A stretch of DNA of 46,557 bases from NCBI GenBank assembly GCA_018821305.1, contig JAHJMN010000208.1, positions 1-46,557 of the forward strand, written 5' to 3'. The DNA is from Myxococcota bacterium (GTDB lineage Bacteria > Myxococcota_A > Polyangia > HGW-17). Below, one piece after another: positions 30,308-41,830 of the stretch (its first letter is position 1; each line of letters begins with the position of its first letter). The translations under genes and the position numbers were made by a program. The notes under the pieces are model-generated. The model saw only the letters and a program-made list of their open reading frames with translations, was not told the origin of the DNA and did not search any database.

Positions 30308-31741
30308 TTAGTATCCTGAGCCGGAGGATGCTGTGCCGCTTACTATTGCTACGGAAGCTGATGCTCCAAGGCGGGTGGCGCCAGCAGCTACCATGTCTTT
30401 TGCTGTTTTTGTGTCGCGGATGCCTCCCGATGCTTTTACGCCCATGTCGGGACCGACGGTTTCGCGCATGAGAGCAATGTCTTCAACGGTGGCGCCACCG
30501 GGGACAAACCCAGTGGAAGTCTTAACGAAATCGGCTCCCGCCATCTTGGAGAGCAGGCAGGCTTTGACTTTTTCTTCCCGGGTGAGAAGGGCCGTTTCTA
30601 AGATGACTTTCACGATGCCACGACCTTTTGCAGCGGCGACAACCGCTTCAATGTCGTCTTTAACAAGGGCGTCATTGCCGGATTTCAGGGCGCCTACATT
30701 AATAACCATATCGATTTCGTGGGCTCCATTTGCGATGGCATCACGGGTTTCGATAGCTTTGGCAGTGGATGTTGTCGCTCCGAGAGGGAAGCCGATTACG
30801 GTACATACTTTTACTGTTGAACCGGCGAGCATCCGGGAACAGAGTGACACCCATGAAGGGTTAACACACACCGACGCAAAGGAGTGTTTCCGGGCTTCTT
30901 CACAGAGTTTTCGGACTTGATCTTCCGTTGCATCAGGTTTGAGCAGAGTGTGATCGATGTATGGGGCGAGGTCCAATGTAACCGGTGCACCAACGGTTGA
31001 TGCAACACGATCCGCACCGGAAGATACCATTTTTGTAACGTCATCCTTTCGGTGTTCCACACAGAGACCGCAAGCGCTGCAGTCGCCGTTTTGTGCATCG
31101 CAGCCACCAGCGGTTCGTGCTGAAGAGGCCTGACCTTGAGACACGCCGGAGCAAACTCGATCTATCAGTTGTTCCACGGGGCATATTTCAATACCAAGTT
31201 CCTTCGCCATGGAAACCAGATTGTCAAGGCGAGCTTTAATCGGAGCGGGAATGCGGTCAGTGTTGATTTCAACAGGAAGAAGAGAGTCAACACAACCAAT
31301 TACCCGCAGACCCTTGGTCATGCCGGAAAGTGCTAAAATTGGAATCCACTCGTCTGTCTGGAAATAAACCAACTTGGAAAGCAGGTTGGGGGACATGGCG
31401 GGGAGACACATGGTATCTACATCGTCCAGAACTTTCCAGATATCACCGTCTGTAAGAAGTTCAGCTCCCGGTGCGACGCGCCGGATGGCGGGCAGTCCGA
31501 TGGTGAACTGTGCGGAACCGGAAAAGGCCACCTTCAGACGGGAAGTACATTCAGCGATTTTTCCAACTTGATGGACTACCTGATCAATATTGCGGTTGGC
31601 TCCCGTGAGAAGGATTAAAACGCCTTTTGGAGTTTGCCGGGAAAGGGGGGCATGCGTTGCCTGTTTGGGGGAACCAGCTTGTGGCTGAAGTCTTTTCATT
31701 ACTTCAGCTGTTATCAAGGCTACCAAATCTTTATTATCCAT
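30308..31741 (-). CDS. deoC: DeoC-type aldolase fused to flavoprotein-like domain, Cys cluster and encapsulation peptide
   Basis: A 477-residue fusion, about twice the usual DeoC length. Residues 1-20 form an amphipathic helix like BMC encapsulation peptides. Residues about 38-195 resemble a flavoprotein (PF02441-like) Rossmann domain. A Cys-rich linker holds C214, C221, C224 and C227 (C-x6-C-x2-C-x2-C). The class I aldolase spans about 253-475, with Schiff-base K407 (FVKTSTGF), K436 (VKASGGIR) and D344 (EIDMVINVG). It should cleave 2-deoxyribose-5-phosphate to acetaldehyde and glyceraldehyde-3-phosphate in the BMC lumen. It is the last gene of the locus, separated from the shell genes by a 143-bp gap with a terminator-like hairpin. 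Confidence 0.92.
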
Positions 31742-31884: not shown

Positions 31885-32166
31885 CTACCCTATTTTAGGA
31901 AGAATTCCTTCAACCTGATCGTCGGGACGCGGAATTACATGAACAGATACAAGTTGGCCAACTTTTTTAGCAGCAACGGAGCCTGCTTCAATTGCAGCTT
32001 TTACAGCGCCGACGTCACCACGTACCATAACGGTAACATAGCCGCCGCCAACGAATTCTTTACCGACCAGTGTAACTCGAGCGGATTTAACCATTGCATC
32101 GGCAGCTTCAATTGCGCCAACAAGACCCATTGTTTCGATCATTCCTAAAGCTTCTTTAAAATCCAT
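31885..32166 (-). CDS. BMC-H shell protein 1 (PduA-like hexamer)
   Basis: A 93-residue single BMC domain protein that forms the hexagonal tiles of a microcompartment shell. The ATG at 32166 ([12 protein letters not shown]) has GGAGG upstream; a TTG 12 bp earlier overlaps that site and is unlikely. The conserved 'E-A-L-G-M-I-E-T', 'A-A-D-A-M-V-K-S-A', 'V-R-G-D-V-G-A-V' and 'V-I-P-R-P' blocks are intact. The central pore loop reads F-V-G-G-G where PduA has K-I-G-S-G, so the pore is lined by Gly and may pass other molecules. It differs from its paralogue at 32296 in about 15% of positions. Confidence 0.95.
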
Positions 32167-32295: not shown

Positions 32296-32580
32296 TTATT
32301 TCGGGATTTTCGGTAAAATGCCTTCCACTTGATCATCAGGACGCGGAATAACATGAACGGATACGAGCTGCCCAACTTTCTGAGCAGCAACGGAACCTGC
32401 TTCGATGGCGGCTTTCACTGCACCAACATCACCACGTACCATAACTGTTACAAAACCGCCACCTACGCGCTCTTTGCCGATCAGTGTGACGCGGGCGGAT
32501 TTAACCATGGCATCAGCTGCCTCAATGGCGCCAACAAGACCCTTTGTCTCGATCATTCCTAATGCTTCTTTATTGCTCAT
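32296..32580 (-). CDS. BMC-H shell protein 2 (PduA-like hexamer)
   Basis: A 94-residue BMC-H protein, near-duplicate of the adjacent one. The pore loop is R-V-G-G-G, again Gly at the pore-lining position. An AGGAGG site lies before the ATG. The 129-bp gap to the next BMC-H gene contains the palindrome ATTTTTCGAAAAAT (32253-32266). Two close BMC-H copies usually mean the main facet proteins of the shell, perhaps mixing in one tile. Confidence 0.95.
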
Positions 32581-32593
32581 AACAAACCTCCTA

Positions 32594-32893
32594 TTATGGT
32601 TTATAAGTATTTAAATTTCCGTTTTTATCAGAAACTGTTGAAACATCTACAAATCCTACTATGCACGCGTCGATTGGGGGAATGTCCCCAAGAGCAAGTG
32701 CCGCATCCCGCTTGGTTGTGATGGTTACTACATCACCCATTCCTGCACAGGCGATACCGTCCAGTGCCACGAAAGGCTTCCCGATGGGATTCAGGTTTTC
32801 ATCGACGCCCTGAACCACAAACATACGGTATCCCGTAAGGGTTTCTACTTTGATGGTAGCATTTACCTGCCCGATGACACGTCCTGTAATCAT
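32594..32893 (-). CDS. BMC-P shell vertex protein 1 (EutN/CcmL family)
   Basis: A 99-residue pentamer-forming shell protein that caps the icosahedral vertices. The family start 'M-x-x-G-R-V-I-G-Q-V', the 'L-x-G-Y-R-M-x-V-V-Q' strand and 'A-x-D-x-x-x-A-G-x-G-D-V-V' are present. One base separates it from the RpiB stop. It is one of three BMC-P paralogues in the locus, a number usual for metabolosomes. Confidence 0.93.
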
Positions 32894-32894
32894 A

Positions 32895-33380
32895 TCAAAC
32901 CACCTTCATTGTCCGGTTTTCAATCTCGGTGATTTTATCGAGTCGACGCTGATGACGACCACCCGCATAGGGCGTATTAAGCCACAGGTCCACTAGGTCC
33001 TTTGCAAGTCCGGGCCCGAGCCATGCTCCCCCGAGGCAAAGTACGTTTGCATTCGTGTGCTCGCGGCTGGATTTAACAGAAAAAGCGTCCATAGCTACTA
33101 CGGCTCGGATGCCTTTTACTTTGTTGGCTACAACGGCGCTTCCCTGACCGATACTGTCGACGATGATACCCACGGCGTTTCCGCCACCGGCGTGATTGCC
33201 GGAAATGGCCTGTGTCACTAAAAAGGCATAATCGGGAAAATCCACTGCATCCTTGGAATGCGTGCCGAAATCTGCTACATCATAACCCTTTTCCAGCAGG
33301 TGAGCTTTAATCTGGTTTTTCATTTCAAAACCGCCGTGATCGGCACCAAGAAATACTTTCACGTGTTTCACTTCACTCAT
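32895..33380 (-). CDS. rpiB: RpiB/LacAB-family sugar-phosphate isomerase with Asp at the usual Cys position
   Basis: A 161-residue RpiB/LacAB-fold protein. The ATG at 33380 is preceded by GAGGGA; an upstream TTG is not needed. A-D-H-G-G (13-17), the 'R-E-H-x-N-A-N-V' block (106-113) and overall length fit RpiB. The loop that normally reads G-I-L-I-C-G-T-G-x-G reads G-I-I-V-D-S-I-G-Q-G, so D75 stands where the catalytic Cys sits in E. coli RpiB, more like LacA-type subunits. It probably isomerises an aldose/ketose phosphate for the BMC pathway, but ribose-5-phosphate cannot be assumed. No encapsulation peptide is visible at its N-terminus. Confidence 0.88.
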   Translation of the reverse strand: MSEVKHVKVFLGADHGGFEMKNQIKAHLLEKGYDVADFGTHSKDAVDFPDYAFLVTQAISGNHAGGGNAVGIIVDSIGQGSAVVANKVKGIRAVVAMDAFSVKSSREHTNANVLCLGGAWLGPGLAKDLVDLWLNTPYAGGRHQRRLDKITEIENRTMKVV

Positions 33381-33387
33381 GATTCCC

Positions 33388-34299
33388 TCACGACGCAAAA
33401 ACCTTGCGTTTAACAGCAGCTACCTGCTCAATCATCGATGCGAAAGTTGTGGCGTTCAAACTGGCGTTGCCAACTAAAAATCCGTCGATATCTGGTTTGG
33501 CCGCCAAAGTTGCGGCATTCTTATCGTTTGCGCTGCCACCGTAAAGAATACGTATGGAATTGGCATAAGCCCACGAGAATCGGTCAGCCAGTTTCTCGCG
33601 TACGAAGGCGATGGCATCCTGAGCCTGCTCGGCGGTAGCCGTAAGGCCAGTTCCGATAGCCCAGATGGGTTCATAAGCCACGACTATCATTGCCGGATCG
33701 GGAAGGGGGTTTTTGAGCCCGGCAAACCCGGTAAGAATCTGGTTTTGCAGCACGCGGAAAGTTGAGCCGTCGTTACGTTCTTTAAGGTTCTCTCCAATGC
33801 AGAAAATCGGAAGGAATTTTTTATCTACAGCATATGCGAGTTTCTTCGCAAGGAGTTCATCCGTTTCGCCGAAAAGGTTGCGGCGTTCTGAGTGGCCGAT
33901 AATTACAGACTGAACGCCCACATCAATAAGCATATCAAGGCTGTGCTCGCCGGTGAAAGCTCCGGAAGGCTCTGGGTAGAAATTCTGAGCCCCCAGCAGG
34001 ATGTCAGTCTCTTTCTTTTCGCCAGCTAAGACCGGCAACAGAATGTGCGGGGCGCAGATGAGAGTCTGGATGTTTTTGCGATCTTTGAGCTGGATTTCCC
34101 TCATGAAGGCTTTTGCAGAGCCGCTCAGTTGATTCATTTTCCAGTTGGCGGCAACGAGGGGTAATCGCTTTCCGTAGTTATGTGAAGAATTAATGGTCTG
34201 AGATACGGCTTTCATGGGCTTGATATCCGATGATGACGGGGCCATTTCCTGCAGAGTCTGTCTTACCAGTTGTTCGATAATTGTTCGCAGATCACTCAT
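33388..34299 (-). CDS. tpiA: Triose-phosphate isomerase with N-terminal encapsulation-peptide-like helix
   Basis: A 303-residue TIM, about 45-50 residues longer than normal because of its N-terminus: residues 1-20 (an amphipathic I/L/V-rich helix) plus a flexible Ser/Pro linker to about 44. The TIM barrel follows with K54 (ANWKMN), H136 (IIGHSERR), E210 (AYEPIWAIGTG) and the phosphate-binding 'Y-G-G-S-A', all intact. The extension is the layout of BMC cargo tags, so it should act in the lumen, converting the DeoC product glyceraldehyde-3-phosphate to dihydroxyacetone phosphate. The start overlaps the stop of the upstream BMC-P gene (ATGA) and the stop lies 7 bp before rpiB. Confidence 0.93.
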   Translation of the reverse strand: MSDLRTIIEQLVRQTLQEMAPSSSDIKPMKAVSQTINSSHNYGKRLPLVAANWKMNQLSGSAKAFMREIQLKDRKNIQTLICAPHILLPVLAGEKKETDILLGAQNFYPEPSGAFTGEHSLDMLIDVGVQSVIIGHSERRNLFGETDELLAKKLAYAVDKKFLPIFCIGENLKERNDGSTFRVLQNQILTGFAGLKNPLPDPAMIVVAYEPIWAIGTGLTATAEQAQDAIAFVREKLADRFSWAYANSIRILYGGSANDKNAATLAAKPDIDGFLVGNASLNATTFASMIEQVAAVKRKVFAS

Positions 34300-34607
34300 T
34301 TGGCCACTCTATTCTTTTCCTCAAGGAAAGTTTGTCTGCCAGGAATTTCAATGGAATCAATTATTCCGAGGATTACTGCTTCCACCGGGGCATCTTTGCT
34401 GTTCATGACAAGGCGGGAGCTTTTTCCTTCCTGACATAAAAGGACGATATTTCCGATACCTGCCTGTACGGTATCAACGGCTAAAATCGCCGGTTCACTT
34501 CGTTTTCCGGTTTCATCAAGGGGCTCAACCCACAACAGTTTATAACCATTGAGGCAGTCAAGCTTAATGGTATTTACCACGGTACCGATGACACGGGCTA
34601 TCTTCAT
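34296..34607 (-). CDS. BMC-P shell vertex protein 2 (EutN/CcmL family)
   Basis: A 103-residue pentameric shell protein. The ATG at 34607 gives the canonical 'M-x-I-A-R-V-I-G-T-V-V' start 2 bp after the BMC-T stop; the longer frame upstream runs through the BMC-T coding region and is not used. The 'L-x-G-Y-K-L-L-W-V-E-P' strand and 'A-V-D-x-V-Q-A-G-I-G' loop are present. Its stop overlaps the TIM start by 4 bp. Confidence 0.92.
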   Translation of the reverse strand: MKIARVIGTVVNTIKLDCLNGYKLLWVEPLDETGKRSEPAILAVDTVQAGIGNIVLLCQEGKSSRLVMNSKDAPVEAVILGIIDSIEIPGRQTFLEEKNRVAK

Positions 34608-34609
34608 AG

Positions 34610-35215
34610 TTACACCAGACTCGGAATGAGATCCGGATGGGGTGATGGAATTATGGTAAATCCAAGTAAAAGCCCCTGAGTTTTTGCCGCTCGGATTCCC
34701 GCATCGCATGCGGCTCTGACAGCGGAAACTTCACCAGTTAAAAGTGTAAATGCCTTGCCTCCCATGGCTCGGGCCAGACGGATTTCAAGCAGATTGACCT
34801 GAGCTGCTTTGACTGCTTCGTCGCCGGCGATGATGGCCGCAGCAACGGAGAAGGTTTCGATCATGCCGAGGGCTTTTATATCTCCAGGATCTGTGGTGGC
34901 GGTAAACGCCTGAAGGACCTGCGGGTGGATGTTTGGTATTACCAGACGATCAACTAACGTATCTGCTGCAACGGCTTCACCGGCAGCAACTGCGGCAGTG
35001 ACTTCCGCAACATGGCCTCCCACAAGTACAATATATTTTCCAGGACAGACGGGGGTTGCGGTGAGAAGGGTCACCTGAGCGGCTTTCAGCATGGCATCAG
35101 CGGACTCAAGGCCCCGGGCAATGCTACTTGTTTCAATGCAGCCTATAGCCTGGGGATAAACATCCTTCACTCTTGCAGCTTCAGTGGTCGGATCGGGGTG
35201 ATTCATGCTATTCAA
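34610..35215 (-). CDS. pduT: PduT-like BMC-T shell protein with Fe-S pore Cys
   Basis: A 201-residue tandem-BMC-domain protein that forms trimers. It matches PduT along its length, including 'I-G-C-I-E-T-S-S-I-A-R-G' and the 'V-C-P-G-K-Y' loop. C57 there is equivalent to the Cys that in PduT ligates a [4Fe-4S] cluster at the three-fold pore. A TTG start at 35215 is preferred because AGGAG lies 6 bp upstream; ATG 35206 is the alternative. The second domain starts about residue 112. It lies next to pduS, as in pdu operons, and probably passes electrons through the shell. Confidence 0.93.
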   Translation of the reverse strand: MNSMNHPDPTTEAARVKDVYPQAIGCIETSSIARGLESADAMLKAAQVTLLTATPVCPGKYIVLVGGHVAEVTAAVAAGEAVAADTLVDRLVIPNIHPQVLQAFTATTDPGDIKALGMIETFSVAAAIIAGDEAVKAAQVNLLEIRLARAMGGKAFTLLTGEVSAVRAACDAGIRAAKTQGLLLGFTIIPSPHPDLIPSLV

Positions 35216-35225
35216 GGGAGACTCC

Positions 35226-36578
35226 TTATATTAATTCTATTGTAACTGCCTGAGAGGTTACTTCAAGTATTCGTCCTGCGACAGAACTGTGAACATTGGC
35301 CCCAAGTTTGTCCTCGGGTGCAGCCCCAATTAATTGTCCGGCAGTTACCGTATCTCCGGCTTTTACGCAGGCTACGGCAGGAACGCCGATATGTTGCCGC
35401 AGTGGAATTGTAACGGTCTTCATGGGTTCTGTGAAATCCTTAAGAACCGCAGGGCCATCGTAAGGTGTGAGCCCAAGGCGAGCCACAAGGCGCTTGACCG
35501 GTACGTGGCGCAAGTCTCCGAAAACTCTCGCTTCCGTGGGTCTGGGAACACTGGGACGTTTTATCCCCGCATCCCACAAGTGTTTTTTCAGTTCAACATT
35601 CATTGCGCAGGGATCCAGGTTCATTACACAGGCAAATGTAGCACACAGACCGCATTCGGAGCAGAGATAGGCTCCCGTGTAAGCTTTGAGGTCCTCGGAA
35701 ACGCCAGCGGCAACACTGCGCATGATGCGATCCGGGTAAAGTTCGTGCCCAAGGGCGTTTCTCGGGCAAAGCTCACTGCACAGCATGCATTTGAGGCATG
35801 CGGAGCGGGTCAGATGAAGTTGACGTTTTTTATCCGTGAGGCGACGTAAGATAACGGGGTTGGTTTCCGGAAGGATCAGTAAACTTGTGGTAGTTTTCGT
35901 GACGACTCCGGAAAAATCCGGTGATAAAGCCCCCATCATTGGGCCGCCAACTATAAGTCTGGCGTTTTCTACCGTGGGGTTTCCTGCAGCGCGAATCAGG
36001 GTTTCGTAGGGGGTTCCCACAGGAACTTCAAATGTAGCAGGGCTGTTAACCGCACCGCCAACGGTTACCTTGCGCGTGATTACGGGCTGCTTGTTTTCCA
36101 CCGCCCGGGTAACGTCTACAAGGGTGGAAACGTTGCTGACAACGGCTCCCACATCTCGGGGAAGTCCGTATTCGGGGATCGTTCTGCCCAGGACTTCGCG
36201 GATAAGAATAAATTCATCACCGGCGGGGTAGAAATCATCCATTTTGAAAAGAGAGATGCTGTCGGAAACCTGCTGCAGTCGGATTTGTTCTTCAAGGGCA
36301 GCGATGGCATCTTTGTACTTTGCTTTTAGCCCAATGATTCCCCGGGAGGCTCCCGTGGCCTTCATGGCGTACTGCATCCCGAGAACGATCTCCCGTGGAT
36401 GGTTTTGCATGGTGAGCCTGTCAACCCTGATGAGCGGTTCGCATTCAGCTCCGTTAGCAACGACGAATTCAACATTTGCATCATATTTGACGTGCGTTGG
36501 AAATCCGGCACCCCCGGCACCAACAATGCCGGCTTCACGAATGCGTTTGAGAATTTCATTTCTGGAGACTTTTTTCAT
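35226..36578 (-). CDS. pduS: PduS/RnfC-like flavin and Fe-S electron-transfer protein
   Basis: A 450-residue RnfC-fold protein. The Gly-rich 'G-A-G-G-A-G-F-P-T-H-V-K' (20-31) and 'N-G-A-E-C-E-P' (42-48) bind flavin and NADH. Two ferredoxin-type [4Fe-4S] motifs lie at C261, C264, C267, C271 and at C306, C309, C312, C317. A C-terminal barrel-sandwich (SLBB/lipoyl-like) domain follows. In Pdu metabolosomes PduS reduces cobalamin or passes electrons on; no cobalamin-dependent enzyme is present here, so recycling NAD from the dehydrogenase NADH is the likelier job, with PduT-like BMC-T as partner. AAGGA precedes the ATG. Confidence 0.93.
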   Translation of the reverse strand: MKKVSRNEILKRIREAGIVGAGGAGFPTHVKYDANVEFVVANGAECEPLIRVDRLTMQNHPREIVLGMQYAMKATGASRGIIGLKAKYKDAIAALEEQIRLQQVSDSISLFKMDDFYPAGDEFILIREVLGRTIPEYGLPRDVGAVVSNVSTLVDVTRAVENKQPVITRKVTVGGAVNSPATFEVPVGTPYETLIRAAGNPTVENARLIVGGPMMGALSPDFSGVVTKTTTSLLILPETNPVILRRLTDKKRQLHLTRSACLKCMLCSELCPRNALGHELYPDRIMRSVAAGVSEDLKAYTGAYLCSECGLCATFACVMNLDPCAMNVELKKHLWDAGIKRPSVPRPTEARVFGDLRHVPVKRLVARLGLTPYDGPAVLKDFTEPMKTVTIPLRQHIGVPAVACVKAGDTVTAGQLIGAAPEDKLGANVHSSVAGRILEVTSQAVTIELI

Positions 36579-36647: not shown

Positions 36648-38120
36648 CTAAACTATGCGAAATGCACCGGCCAGAACGCATCGACGCTGTCTTGTGAACG
36701 TTCGAGCTGAAGTCAGCCCTTCTCCCGTCGGTCCCGCGATAGACAGGGTTGTAAATCCTTCTCCGCCGAACCCAAGGCCAGCGTAAGAGGGTGCATTTTT
36801 AACAAATATTGTTGTTTCGATGGCCCTTGCCACCTTTGACATGTTACTGACGTTTTCCGAGTGCATATAAGCTGAATGCCTGAAATAGTGTTCAGCTTTT
36901 TTTGCTTTTTCCAGAGCTTCATCAAGATCCTTTACCCTAACGATGGGGAGAATCGGCATGAGCATTTCCGCCTGAACCAACGGATGGCTGTCATCGGGGA
37001 CTTCGCAGATAACAAGTCGAATGGAGTCTGGAACCGTGATGCCGATGGTTGCAAGGAGTTCGGATGCGTTGTGTCCAACGTAGTTTTTATTCGGATGAGG
37101 CCAGGGTTCTCCGGGCTCAACGAGAGCTTTTGTGATTGCATCAATTTGCGGGCCTTTTATAAGGTATGCCCCATGAAGTTGCATTTCGGAGATCAGACTG
37201 TCGGCGACATTGTCAAAGACGAAAACTTCTTTTTCTGCAGTGCAAAGTACGTTATTATCGAAGCTTGCACCGTTTACAATGCACTTTGCCGCATGGGATA
37301 TGTCCGCGGTGTCATCGACGATAACCGGCGGATTGCCCGGACCGGCAGCGATGCAGCGTTTACCGGATGTCATAGCTGACTTCACGACGGCACCGCCCCC
37401 CGTTACCATGAGAAGCCTGATTTCCGGATGTTTCATGAGAGCAGCGGAAGATTCAAGTGTCGGTGATGCAATACTGCACAGAAGGGTTTTGGGCCCCCCG
37501 ACTTTTTCAATGGCACGATTGAGCACCGCAACAGCTTTATTACTGACGTTTTTTGCGGATGGATGAGCGTTAAAAACCACGGCGTTACCGGCCGCAACCA
37601 TGCCGATGCTGTTATTGATAACCGTCGGTGTCGGGTTTGTGACGGGGGTAATTGCCCCGATGACCCCGAAGGGCGCCGGTTCCACAAGGGTAAGCCCATC
37701 ATCGCCAGTGTAGCACAGCGGCGACAAATCTTCAGTTCCGGGGGTTTTGCGTGCGGCCAGTAGGATTTTCTGAATCTTATCGGCAACGCGACCGAATCCG
37801 CTTTCACTGACGCTTTCCTGTGCAAAAATCTCTGCGTGGGCAATGGCAGCTTCCCTCATGGCCTGAATGAAAACTTTCCGCCTTTCGAGAGGAACGCTGG
37901 AAAACTCGATATATGCTTTTTTCGCTGCCGTTACTGCTTCATCAACGGTGGCGAAGATGCCTTCGGCAGGACTGGCGCTGGCGGTCTGGGCAGTGCGAAC
38001 AATGGGAGTCGGCGCCGGTGAACTTACAAATTGAGAGTTTGTTACACCGCGCTCAGTCATTTGAGCAACAACAGCTTCAACTAATTTGCTAATCTGGTTT
38101 TCATCTATCTGAATGGCCAT
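36648..38120 (-). CDS. pduP: CoA-acylating aldehyde dehydrogenase (PduP-like) with encapsulation peptide
   Basis: A 490-residue dehydrogenase that converts an aldehyde, here probably acetaldehyde, with CoA and NAD to acyl-CoA and NADH. Residues 1-24 form the amphipathic helix typical of PduP tags, with a Pro/Ala/Ser linker to about 50. The catalytic C293 lies in 'S-F-D-N-N-V-L-C-T-A-E-K-E', and the 'F-G-V-I-G-A-I-T-P-V-T-N-P' and 'A-A-G-P-G-N-P-P-V-I-V' blocks are intact. It is the core enzyme of aldehyde metabolosomes. A 21-bp gap separates it from the upstream BMC-P gene. Confidence 0.95.
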   Translation of the reverse strand: MAIQIDENQISKLVEAVVAQMTERGVTNSQFVSSPAPTPIVRTAQTASASPAEGIFATVDEAVTAAKKAYIEFSSVPLERRKVFIQAMREAAIAHAEIFAQESVSESGFGRVADKIQKILLAARKTPGTEDLSPLCYTGDDGLTLVEPAPFGVIGAITPVTNPTPTVINNSIGMVAAGNAVVFNAHPSAKNVSNKAVAVLNRAIEKVGGPKTLLCSIASPTLESSAALMKHPEIRLLMVTGGGAVVKSAMTSGKRCIAAGPGNPPVIVDDTADISHAAKCIVNGASFDNNVLCTAEKEVFVFDNVADSLISEMQLHGAYLIKGPQIDAITKALVEPGEPWPHPNKNYVGHNASELLATIGITVPDSIRLVICEVPDDSHPLVQAEMLMPILPIVRVKDLDEALEKAKKAEHYFRHSAYMHSENVSNMSKVARAIETTIFVKNAPSYAGLGFGGEGFTTLSIAGPTGEGLTSARTFTRQRRCVLAGAFRIV

Positions 38121-38141: not shown

Positions 38142-38432
38142 TTATTTTGCAAAGGTTCTTTTTCCTTCAAACTCAACATAATCGACAATTGCTATAATTG
38201 AAGCATCCGCCGGACGGTCTTTTGTGGTTTCCGTCAGACGAGCAGAGGAGCCTTGAACAATAAGGACTATTTCTCCAACGCCAGCTCCGACGGAGTCAAC
38301 GGCAACAAGTGGTTTTCCATCTGCTTTTTGTTCTTTATAGTCAACGGGTTCAACTATCAACAGTTTGGACCCGGTCATGGATTCGGATTTTCTCGTACTT
38401 ACTACATTTCCGATGACTCGTGCTAACAGCAT
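38142..38432 (-). CDS. BMC-P shell vertex protein 3 (EutN/CcmL family)
   Basis: A 96-residue pentameric shell protein. The start 'M-L-L-A-R-V-I-G-N-V-V', the 'L-L-I-V-E-P-V' strand and 'A-V-D-S-V-G-A-G-V-G-E-I-V-L' loop are canonical. It lies 11 bp downstream of the flavoprotein-like gene and 21 bp before pduP. Confidence 0.93.
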   Translation of the reverse strand: MLLARVIGNVVSTRKSESMTGSKLLIVEPVDYKEQKADGKPLVAVDSVGAGVGEIVLIVQGSSARLTETTKDRPADASIIAIVDYVEFEGKRTFAK

Positions 38433-38443
38433 TTATTCTCCTT

Positions 38444-39193
38444 TTAGTCCGGCAGGCGCACAAGGTGCAGCCCGAGTTCCGATATCCTGCTTTCCGCAAG
38501 CGGTGTTACAATGGTTTTTGAGTGCAGGCGCACTTCTTTATGGCCGCTTCGGGACAAATTTTCGACGTCAATTTCAGTCAGAAGTCCGCCTTTTTCCACC
38601 CCGTGGTTAGCCGTCAAGGTTAATTCTTTAAGTTGACGTGCAATATCCGCAGTTGAAACAAGATTGTACCCCGTCTGCGCAAGCTGCCTTTTGAGAGCAT
38701 CAGCTTGCATCGCCACGGGGTTTTGTGTTTTAACTGTTTTAACAGAAAGCAAATCCTCGCAGATTGCAATGTGATTCCCCGCCAGTTGCCCCTGAAGCAG
38801 GATATGGATCCATGGAATTTCGTCGTTGAATCCGAGGATTTGATTCGCTCCCTGGAAGTTAAGGCCTGCAACGAGAATTACGTCGGTACTTTTAATGTTT
38901 GCCAGAATGGATTGAACCGGCAAAGAAGAAAGTAAGTGGCAATCTGATCGCTCCGAAGCAGGTATAAAAGGCAATAATTCATCGTGCAGCTCGTCTTTCA
39001 CAAGCCACTGAACACGCCGGTTCTCCTCCCGGAACGCATTTACTGCGGACAGGATCAGATTTGCGGAACCGATGGCCACTGGCCAGATGACCGTCAGGGT
39101 TCTGATTTCGGTGTCACCCATGCTCTGAAGCCGCGCCATGACGATGTCCGTGATTGTCTGAATGAGTTGTTCGAAATCTCTATCTGACATCAT
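38444..39193 (-). CDS. Stand-alone flavoprotein-like BMC cargo protein
   Basis: A 249-residue protein. Residues 1-25 form an amphipathic helix like the encapsulation tags of DeoC, TIM and PduP in this locus. The central ~150 residues resemble the flavoprotein-like domain fused to DeoC here: 'T-D-V-I-L-V-A-G-L-N-F-Q-G-A-N-Q-I-L-G-F' is matched in position by the DeoC copy around 108-125, and 'I-P-W-I' by 'E-W-I-P-I'. A C-terminal ~60-residue segment is unique. Function unknown; a flavin-dependent redox or decarboxylase-like activity is possible but unproven. Three bases separate it from the pduL stop. Confidence 0.75.
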   Translation of the reverse strand: MMSDRDFEQLIQTITDIVMARLQSMGDTEIRTLTVIWPVAIGSANLILSAVNAFREENRRVQWLVKDELHDELLPFIPASERSDCHLLSSLPVQSILANIKSTDVILVAGLNFQGANQILGFNDEIPWIHILLQGQLAGNHIAICEDLLSVKTVKTQNPVAMQADALKRQLAQTGYNLVSTADIARQLKELTLTANHGVEKGGLLTEIDVENLSRSGHKEVRLHSKTIVTPLAESRISELGLHLVRLPD

Positions 39194-39196
39194 ATA

Positions 39197-39889
39197 TTAA
39201 CGGATTGTCCGCCCTTCGGAAGTAAATTGACAGTACGGTTGAGCCTGCCCCGCATTAAGCGTAGAAGAAATTCCGCAGTGTTTCAGTTCACACAAATCGT
39301 TACAGATATTTTTGAGAATTTGTACACGATCTCCATTTTTTATTGAGGCAGCGTTTCCCTCGTCAAGGTCAAGGTGAAGTTCCGTGGCGAAATCTTTTGA
39401 TACGCGAACTAAAACATCGGAGAAAACCAGACCCCGGGGACCGGAAACCTGCACCCAGACTTTCTGCTTATCCGTAACGGCAAAACGAGCAGCGTCTTCA
39501 GGCGTTGTATGAATATGGCGGGCGGCAACGATGCAGCCTTCCTGAAGTTTTACGGCTCCTTTAGGCCCAATTAGAAAGGCCCCGGGGGTACCTTTCACGT
39601 CTCCGCTATCCCGCGTTGGAAGGTTGATTCCGAGGACCACACCATCCGTAGTGGAGAGTTCAACCTGCGTTGCACTGCGTACGGGGCCTAAAACGCGCAC
39701 TTTTGTAATGGAGCGTTTTGGTCCGAGTACTTCAATTGTTTCCTGGCAGGCGTATTGGCCCGGCTGACTGAGATCGGAAAGCCAGTTGAGTTCATAACCG
39801 GGGCCGAACAGGGCATCCACATGTTCCCGGGAAAGGTGAACATGTCTTCCGGAGAGGGCCACTGGAATTGTAAAGTCGTTATTGAGCAT
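39197..39889 (-). CDS. pduL: PduL-type phosphotransacylase
   Basis: A 230-residue PduL (PTAC) that swaps CoA for phosphate on acetyl-CoA and so recycles CoA inside the shell. The ATG at 39889 starts directly before the family motif 'V-x-L-S-G-R-H-V-H-L-S'. The second His-rich motif 'A-R-H-I-H-T-T' and 'E-L-H-L-D-L-D-E-G-N-A' complete the Zn site. The N-terminus carries no obvious encapsulation helix, unlike many PduL proteins; a ~35-residue C-terminal extension follows the core. A longer TTG-start form would begin within the promoter and is rejected. First gene of the main operon. Confidence 0.93.
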   Translation of the reverse strand: MLNNDFTIPVALSGRHVHLSREHVDALFGPGYELNWLSDLSQPGQYACQETIEVLGPKRSITKVRVLGPVRSATQVELSTTDGVVLGINLPTRDSGDVKGTPGAFLIGPKGAVKLQEGCIVAARHIHTTPEDAARFAVTDKQKVWVQVSGPRGLVFSDVLVRVSKDFATELHLDLDEGNAASIKNGDRVQILKNICNDLCELKHCGISSTLNAGQAQPYCQFTSEGRTIR

Positions 39890-39937
39890 CGAAAATCCAC
39901 ACCTTCTGCTGAACGTTTGAGCAGGCGCAAAGCAAAG

Positions 39938-39965
39938 ATTATTCCCGACCAAAATGTTTTGTCAA
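39938..39965 (-). promoter_or_regulatory. Main BMC operon promoter
   Basis: Read on the minus strand: TTGACA (39960-39965), 16-bp spacer, AATAAT (39938-39943). The -35 box is perfect and the -10 matches five of six. The transcript start would be near 39931, about 40 nt before the pduL ATG. The -35 box directly touches the palindrome at 39966-39991. Confidence 0.75.
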
Positions 39966-40138: not shown

Positions 40139-41830
40139 TTACTTTTCCCGGGGGAAGGGCCAGGCCATCATGCCGCCTTCCATGACACGGACGTCATTAA
40201 ATCCGGCTTGAGTCAGAATAAGGGCTGCTTCGTATGAACGAAGACCCATGAGGCAGTAGCACACGATGGGCGTATCATTATTAAACGGAATGTCTTTCAG
40301 TCGGCGTCGAAGGGTGCTCAGCGGAATTAATATCTCTCCGATTCCAAGTCGGCGATCCTCGAACTCATCAAGTTCCCGCACATCGATGAAGCGCAATTCG
40401 CCTCCGTTTTTCTGTGCCCAGACTTCCCGGCTTCCAATTCCTTTGATGAGCCCGCTTAGTTTGTTATCCATTATATGAACCGAGGCAATGAAATGATCGA
40501 TAGCTGGTGAAAACGGCGGAGAGTAGGGAAGGTCAAGACTGAGCATTTGTCCCACGGTAAAATTGGCAGATATGGCCATGGCCCCTTCGGAAACCTGCCT
40601 TGATACGTCGCCTTTGCCAACGCACTGATAACCGAGGATGCGGTGAGTGGATCTTTCCACGGTGAGTTTTGAAATAAGGCTCTTTGAACCCATGAAACCG
40701 GGTTTATCGGTGCCGGAGTTTAAAATGCTCACGGCATCAAAGCCCGCAGCTTCAGCGGAAAAGTGGTTCAGTCCGGCGGAACCAGCGGCGAAGTCGAAAA
40801 TCTTACCGATGCCCGTGCCGATGGTGCCGGGGAAGGATACTGTGTCGCCGAAAATCATATTATCCGCTGCAACGCGCCCCTGAAGGTTAGCCTGGTCACC
40901 CTTGGGGGAATAATCACGCATACCACTCACGCTATTTACGAGTTCGACGCAATCTCCGGCGGCATAGATGTTCGGGTCCGAAGTGCACATATATTTATTC
41001 ACCCGGATTCCGCCGTTTTCGCCTATTTTCAGGCCAGCTTCCCGGGCCAGTGCGTTGTTTGGTTTTACGCCAATAGCAACGATGGCAAGTTCACATGGAA
41101 TTTCGTCCCCTGTTGTAAGTTTTACGCTGCTCAGGTGGCCGTTCACTCCTGAAAATGCTTCGACACCGGTTTCCAGCCTGATTTTGACGCCATGTGACAG
41201 ACATTGCTTTTCCACAAGTTTTGCAAGTTCCCAGTCCAGAAACGGGAGTACCTGATTTCCGAGGTCAATTACCGTGACATCAATACCGGAAACCGTAAGT
41301 GCCTCGGCCGTCTCAAGACCGATGAGGCCACCTCCGATAATAACTGCATTTTTAACTTGCTTTTCATCCCTGACTTTACGAATGTAATCCGCATCGGGAA
41401 GGGTTTTCAGGGCAGTGACACCGGGCAAACTGATCCCGGGAACAGGAGGCATGATGGCCGTTGACCCCGTGGAGATCATGAGTCTGTCGTAGGGCAGAGT
41501 TGAAACCTCACCGGAGTACAAGTTTCGAAGCTCGACGTTTTTTCCCCAGCGGTCGATGCGGGTTACTTCCGTATTGATGAGGACGTCGATATCTTTGTTT
41601 GTCTTAAAGTAAGCAGGGTCACGGAGAATTCCCGTGGGCGTTTCCAGCAGGTGACGGCGTTCGTCAAAGCGGCCCCCAATATAAAAAGGATAACCGCAGG
41701 AGGACATGGTGATGTTTTCCCCCGCTTCGATCATGGTGATGTGGGCGTCGGGAGCAAGACGTCGCGCCCTTGCGGCAGTCTTGGGACCGGCGGCACTTCC
41801 GCCTATGATAACAATGCGTTGGGGATCCAT
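40139..41830 (-). CDS. CoA-disulfide reductase-like flavoprotein with C-terminal rhodanese domain
   Basis: A 563-residue FAD/NAD(P)H-dependent disulfide reductase of the CoADR/NADH-oxidase group. An FAD-binding motif 'I-I-G-G-S-A-A-G' (8-15) is followed by a single active-site C45 (S-S-C-G-Y-P-F-Y), the NAD-binding 'I-I-G-G-G-L-I-G-L-E' and 'A-A-G-D-C-V' motifs, a dimerisation domain, then a rhodanese domain (about 460-560) with the active Cys C526 (Y-C-L-M-G-L-R-S). Such CoADR-Rhd proteins reduce CoA persulfide or disulfide. Next to a BMC that cycles CoA and NADH it may keep CoA reduced or reoxidise NADH. It lies upstream of, and separate from, the pduL promoter. Confidence 0.9.
   Translation of the reverse strand: MDPQRIVIIGGSAAGPKTAARARRLAPDAHITMIEAGENITMSSCGYPFYIGGRFDERRHLLETPTGILRDPAYFKTNKDIDVLINTEVTRIDRWGKNVELRNLYSGEVSTLPYDRLMISTGSTAIMPPVPGISLPGVTALKTLPDADYIRKVRDEKQVKNAVIIGGGLIGLETAEALTVSGIDVTVIDLGNQVLPFLDWELAKLVEKQCLSHGVKIRLETGVEAFSGVNGHLSSVKLTTGDEIPCELAIVAIGVKPNNALAREAGLKIGENGGIRVNKYMCTSDPNIYAAGDCVELVNSVSGMRDYSPKGDQANLQGRVAADNMIFGDTVSFPGTIGTGIGKIFDFAAGSAGLNHFSAEAAGFDAVSILNSGTDKPGFMGSKSLISKLTVERSTHRILGYQCVGKGDVSRQVSEGAMAISANFTVGQMLSLDLPYSPPFSPAIDHFIASVHIMDNKLSGLIKGIGSREVWAQKNGGELRFIDVRELDEFEDRRLGIGEILIPLSTLRRRLKDIPFNNDTPIVCYCLMGLRSYEAALILTQAGFNDVRVMEGGMMAWPFPREK

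Follow-up and report, generated by a model that had tools for sequence, protein, structure and literature searches.

Locus organisation and the extended isomerase

The window analysed here, a stretch of 46,557 nucleotides from a Myxococcota bacterium, contains a microcompartment locus on its minus strand that reads, from 39952 down to 30308, PduL, PduM-like protein, BMC-P, aldehyde dehydrogenase (AldDH), PduS/RnfC-like protein, BMC-T, BMC-P, triose-phosphate isomerase (TIM), RpiB, BMC-P, two BMC-H and DeoC. Its features are the following:

39197–39952, minus strand: PduL phosphotransacylase (NF011652, 265 bits)
38444–39193, minus strand: PduM/eut_hyp-like protein (TIGR02536, 28 bits, below its cut-off; helix score)
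38142–38432, minus strand: BMC-P shell vertex protein (CcmL/EutN-type models; PF03319, 109 bits)
36648–38120, minus strand: CoA-acylating AldDH with tag helix (NF011927, 656 bits, residues 6–490 on profile 2–465)
35226–36578, minus strand: PduS/RnfC-like flavo-iron-sulfur protein (TIGR01945, 262 bits; PF01512, PF13375)
34610–35215, minus strand: BMC-T tandem shell protein, PduT-like (PF00936 twice; TIGR02526, 128 bits)
34296–34607, minus strand: BMC-P shell vertex protein, 4-bp overlap with the TIM start (PF03319, 90 bits)
33388–34299, minus strand: tagged TIM, 303 aa (PF00121, 272 bits)
34243–34290, minus strand: predicted amphipathic targeting helix, TIM codons 4–19 (AlphaFold2; likeness to AldDH and DeoC helices; 12/12 loci)
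34162–34242, minus strand: flexible linker, TIM codons 20–46 (pLDDT <50 at residues 25–40; low identity, length varying between families)
32895–33380, minus strand: RpiB-type sugar-phosphate isomerase, no N-terminal tag (TIGR01120, 154 bits; PF02502)
32594–32893, minus strand: BMC-P shell vertex protein (PF03319, 66 bits)
32296–32580, minus strand: BMC-H shell protein (PF00936, 102 bits)
31885–32166 (or to 32178), minus strand: BMC-H shell protein, near-identical tandem copy of the preceding one (translation; orthologues 86–97% identical)
30308–31741, minus strand: DeoC aldolase with tag helix and extra N-terminal region (TIGR00126, 294 bits, residues 258–467)

The locus has the gene content of sugar-phosphate-utilisation (SPU) loci, combining a DeoC-type aldolase (pfam01791) and RpiB (pfam02502) with shell genes, and AldDH and PduL are also present; DeoC and RpiB are common to all SPU subtypes as presented in the main text of the published catalogue (PMC8217296). 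Both operon junctions described in the initial annotation were recovered: the TIM start and the BMC-P gene upstream share a 4-bp ATGA (34296–34299), and a 7-bp spacer separates TIM from rpiB (TGA-GGGAATC-ATG). In DeoC (477 aa) the tag helix is followed by some 200 residues that match no Pfam family, then by a cysteine cluster and the aldolase; orthologues retain this long N-terminal region. Without a Pfam match of its own, the PduM/eut_hyp-like protein begins with a tag-like helix (MMSDRDFEQLIQTITDIVMARL). Upstream of PduL, at 40139–41830 on the minus strand, lies a gene for a CoA-disulfide-reductase-like flavoprotein with a rhodanese-like C-terminus, which among the relatives examined is adjacent to the locus only in a genome of the same genus (G001, locus L118).

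The TIM reading frame is uninterrupted from its ATG start. PF00121 matches residues 47–292 (272 bits against a cut-off of 20.1, E = 4.7e-81, profile positions 1–244 of 245) and TIGR00419 scores 167 bits against a cut-off of 130.6. Because the PF00121 match starts at residue 47, the N-terminal extension comprises 46 residues (MSDLRTIIEQLVRQTLQEM followed by APSSSDIKPMKAVSQTINSSHNYGKRL), in line with the earlier description of about 45 extra residues forming an amphipathic helix and a linker. AlphaFold2, given the locus TIM aligned with 23 other TIMs, returned the same helix–linker–barrel order, with a helix at residues 4–19 (pLDDT about 80, blocks 84 and 78), residues 25–40 without confident structure (pLDDT <50) and the barrel beginning at residue 48 (mean pLDDT 86.6). 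This predicted structure has the architecture of an encapsulation peptide, that is, a terminal amphipathic helix of 15–20 residues joined to a flexible linker. The predicted barrel superposes on the solved TIM 1b9b (VIA-align Z 36.5, rmsd 1.4, 252 residues), and the catalytic Asn52, Lys54, His136 and Glu210 are invariant in 11 locus TIMs as well as in housekeeping TIMs.

Likeness to the AldDH and DeoC tags was scored against a background of 1,359 N-termini, using a matrix whose training set consisted solely of AldDH and DeoC helices from these loci. The score of the window TIM was equalled by 0.07% of the background, those of its locus orthologues by 0–0.37% and those of six housekeeping TIM N-termini by 9–81%, which bears out the proposal that the TIM extension is of the same design as the tags on AldDH and DeoC. 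Training on DeoC helices alone gave 0.9% for the window TIM, and training on AldDH helices alone a weaker 8.5%. The N-terminal helix of the PduM-like protein also resembles the AldDH and DeoC tags by helix score. RpiB carries no such tag; a tag is therefore not necessary for every enzyme of the locus. The hydrophobic moment of the single, short window helix was not significant by itself (P = 0.07) and was dropped as sole evidence for a tag because it is too weak; conservation of the predicted helix over 12 loci is stronger evidence.

Distribution of the locus and relationship to housekeeping TIMs

The same gene order, with TIM between BMC-P and RpiB, occurs in the window genome and in 11 relatives (59 genomes searched as relatives), some of whose loci are split over contigs. 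All 12 locus TIMs carry a targeting-type helix, also in the relative where it is split over two contigs and the tag reads MATRDEVERLVRQVVDEAL. Full-length identity among the locus TIMs is 36–77%. Within the window's family, identity is 78% in the helix, 48% in the linker and 77% in the core, and between families the linker varies in length and the helix is constant.

TIM at shell loci was seen only where RpiB is also present. No DeoC, RpiB or TIM was detected by tblastn in 20 other shell-gene stretches of the same class (stretches up to about 20 kb), and within the stretches examined in Anaerolineae, TIM was found in none of 14 DeoC-bearing shell loci, 11 of which have RpiB. The initial annotation had suggested searching SPU loci for PF00121; in the stretches examined, TIM was present throughout the window's set (12/12 loci) and in none of the DeoC-bearing Anaerolineae loci (0/14). 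TIM is therefore an optional, clade-specific part, added in one set of SPU-type loci rather than universal, and the existence of DeoC-bearing loci without it means that the TIM step is not required for the pathway. Most of these Anaerolineae loci (L191–L209) also lack a detectable PduS. A phylum-wide draw of 379 genomes, which left out most other tagged genomes, gave tag-based matches in G000 and G016 alone; the 298 genomes drawn from the class to which an Anaerolineae MAG belongs yielded two above the strict cut-off, neither of them by way of the tag. Such tag searches would miss an unrelated TIM that had acquired a tag independently.

Since TIM peptides occur universally, the scan of genome contigs brought up housekeeping TIMs for the most part, and these were reused as tree outgroups, background N-termini and input to the structure alignment. 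Exactly one other TIM is encoded in the window genome, an untagged protein of 258 aa that follows GAPDH and PGK in a gapdh-pgk-tpi cluster, so the objection that this organism might have a single TIM serving glycolysis falls away. A tree built from 71 TIM cores groups all 12 locus TIMs in a single clade (support 99/98), distinct from the housekeeping TIMs that these genomes also encode; the tagged copy is accordingly an old paralogue with a dedicated role. Two simpler origins were considered and rejected: a recent duplicate of the housekeeping TIM is contradicted by the separate clade and by the window TIM being only 37–44% identical to housekeeping TIMs, and a spare glycolytic copy by the second TIM beside GAPDH and PGK. 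Elsewhere the genome also has an untagged DeoC (221 aa) and an ORF for a DeoA-like nucleoside phosphorylase.

Proposed role and alternative readings

Good support for a microcompartment-dedicated TIM comes from the tag, the operon position, the co-occurrence with DeoC and RpiB, the separate clade and the second, untagged glycolytic TIM. The likely role is that of a TIM paralogue packed by its helix and linker into an SPU-type shell, where it would turn glyceraldehyde 3-phosphate (G3P) made by DeoC into dihydroxyacetone phosphate (DHAP). The N-terminal amphipathic helix and flexible linker would act as an encapsulation peptide, packing TIM together with the tagged DeoC and tagged AldDH. DeoC would split 2-deoxyribose 5-phosphate into acetaldehyde and G3P, AldDH and PduL would take acetaldehyde to acetyl-CoA and on to acetyl-phosphate, and the tagged TIM would convert G3P to DHAP. 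Draining G3P in this way could pull the reversible aldolase forward and keep a second reactive aldehyde from the CoA-acylating AldDH; DHAP would then cross the shell and enter glycolysis, its exit having been proposed in the initial annotation as well. That TIM is encapsulated and acts within the shell, that flux runs this way and that DHAP exits are what we infer. A tagged second copy of this common enzyme suggests that a step in sugar breakdown has shifted into an organelle thought to digest DNA sugars.

The TIM and DeoC reactions are both reversible, so the direction of flux is not readable from sequence, and the encapsulated TIM might instead run from DHAP to G3P within the shell, with DeoC joining G3P to acetaldehyde derived from acetyl-CoA at the expense of NADH and the aldehyde being stored as deoxyribose 5-phosphate. 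A comparable scheme, with AldDH as an NADH sink and DeoC and RpiB serving aldehyde condensation or storage, has been proposed for Atribacteria microcompartments, as relayed in the text of PMC6281690, which cites Nobu et al. 2016. We nevertheless regard this reversal as unlikely, as PduL in the locus fits acetyl-phosphate production, and the untagged DeoC and DeoA-like phosphorylase fit deoxynucleoside catabolism, although neither point is decisive.

Other alternatives concern the helix itself. Amphipathic cargo helices of microcompartments also drive self-association, and a similar helix is found on the PduM-like protein, so the TIM helix could be an assembly or anchoring element that binds the inner face of the shell, other cargo or the AldDH and DeoC tags, so that TIM sits on the shell or within aggregated cargo. 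This is improbable as a separate explanation, since helix plus linker is the design described for encapsulation peptides in the main text of PMC8217296, and it would refine encapsulation rather than exclude it. Less credible still is an extension with no targeting role on a spare glycolytic or stress copy that lies in the operon by chance: the helix is kept in locus TIMs that are 36–77% identical over their full length while the linker diverges, every locus TIM is tagged, synteny is conserved and glycolysis has its separate TIM.

It appears fairly likely that a clade of SPU microcompartments acquired a TIM of its own, complete with an encapsulation peptide, and that G3P and DHAP interconvert inside the organelle in a pool kept separate from glycolysis. 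In that case two aldehydes would be handled by the shell, DHAP would have to pass through it, and a subtype would be recognisable by the tagged TIM. A core enzyme of glycolysis would then be confined to a bacterial organelle through a targeting helix of its own and split from the glycolytic copy of the same cell. It also becomes possible to test what leaves the SPU shell and why TIM belongs to some SPU-type loci, here all 12, and not to others, as in the 14 from Anaerolineae.

Comparison with known systems

TIM genes have been described in SPU loci before: Axen et al. 2014 (PMC4207490) reported one in the locus of Atribacteria JGI 0000079-F20 and named SPU partly for TIM. The main text of Sutter et al. 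2021 (PMC8217296) covers SPU1–7 and notes that some DeoC proteins from HO genomes have an encapsulation-peptide-like (EP-like) extension; neither 'triose' nor PF00121 occurs in it. The initial annotation had left open whether a tagged TIM was already described; its place in an SPU locus was on record from 2014 (PMC4207490), whereas no mention of a targeting helix on TIM was found in the main texts searched. The window thus shares with SPU loci, as set out in these main texts (PMC4207490, PMC8217296), the DeoC-type aldolase, RpiB, AldDH, PduL, PduS and shell genes, and with Atribacteria the TIM, and differs in the targeting helix on TIM, unmentioned there, and in the extra N-terminal region of DeoC. 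The HO-type microcompartments of Myxobacteria are similar in that some genomes encode elsewhere a DeoC with an EP-like extension (PMC8217296); their possible counterparts here, the 20 same-class shell-gene stretches without DeoC or RpiB, have no TIM. Encapsulation-peptide cargo such as PduP, PduD and EutC has the same terminal amphipathic helix of 15–20 residues and flexible linker as the window TIM, but the window cargo is a core glycolytic isomerase rather than a signature, aldehyde or acyl-transfer enzyme. The glycosomal TIM of trypanosomes is likewise sent to a separate compartment, although its targeting and organelle are unrelated.
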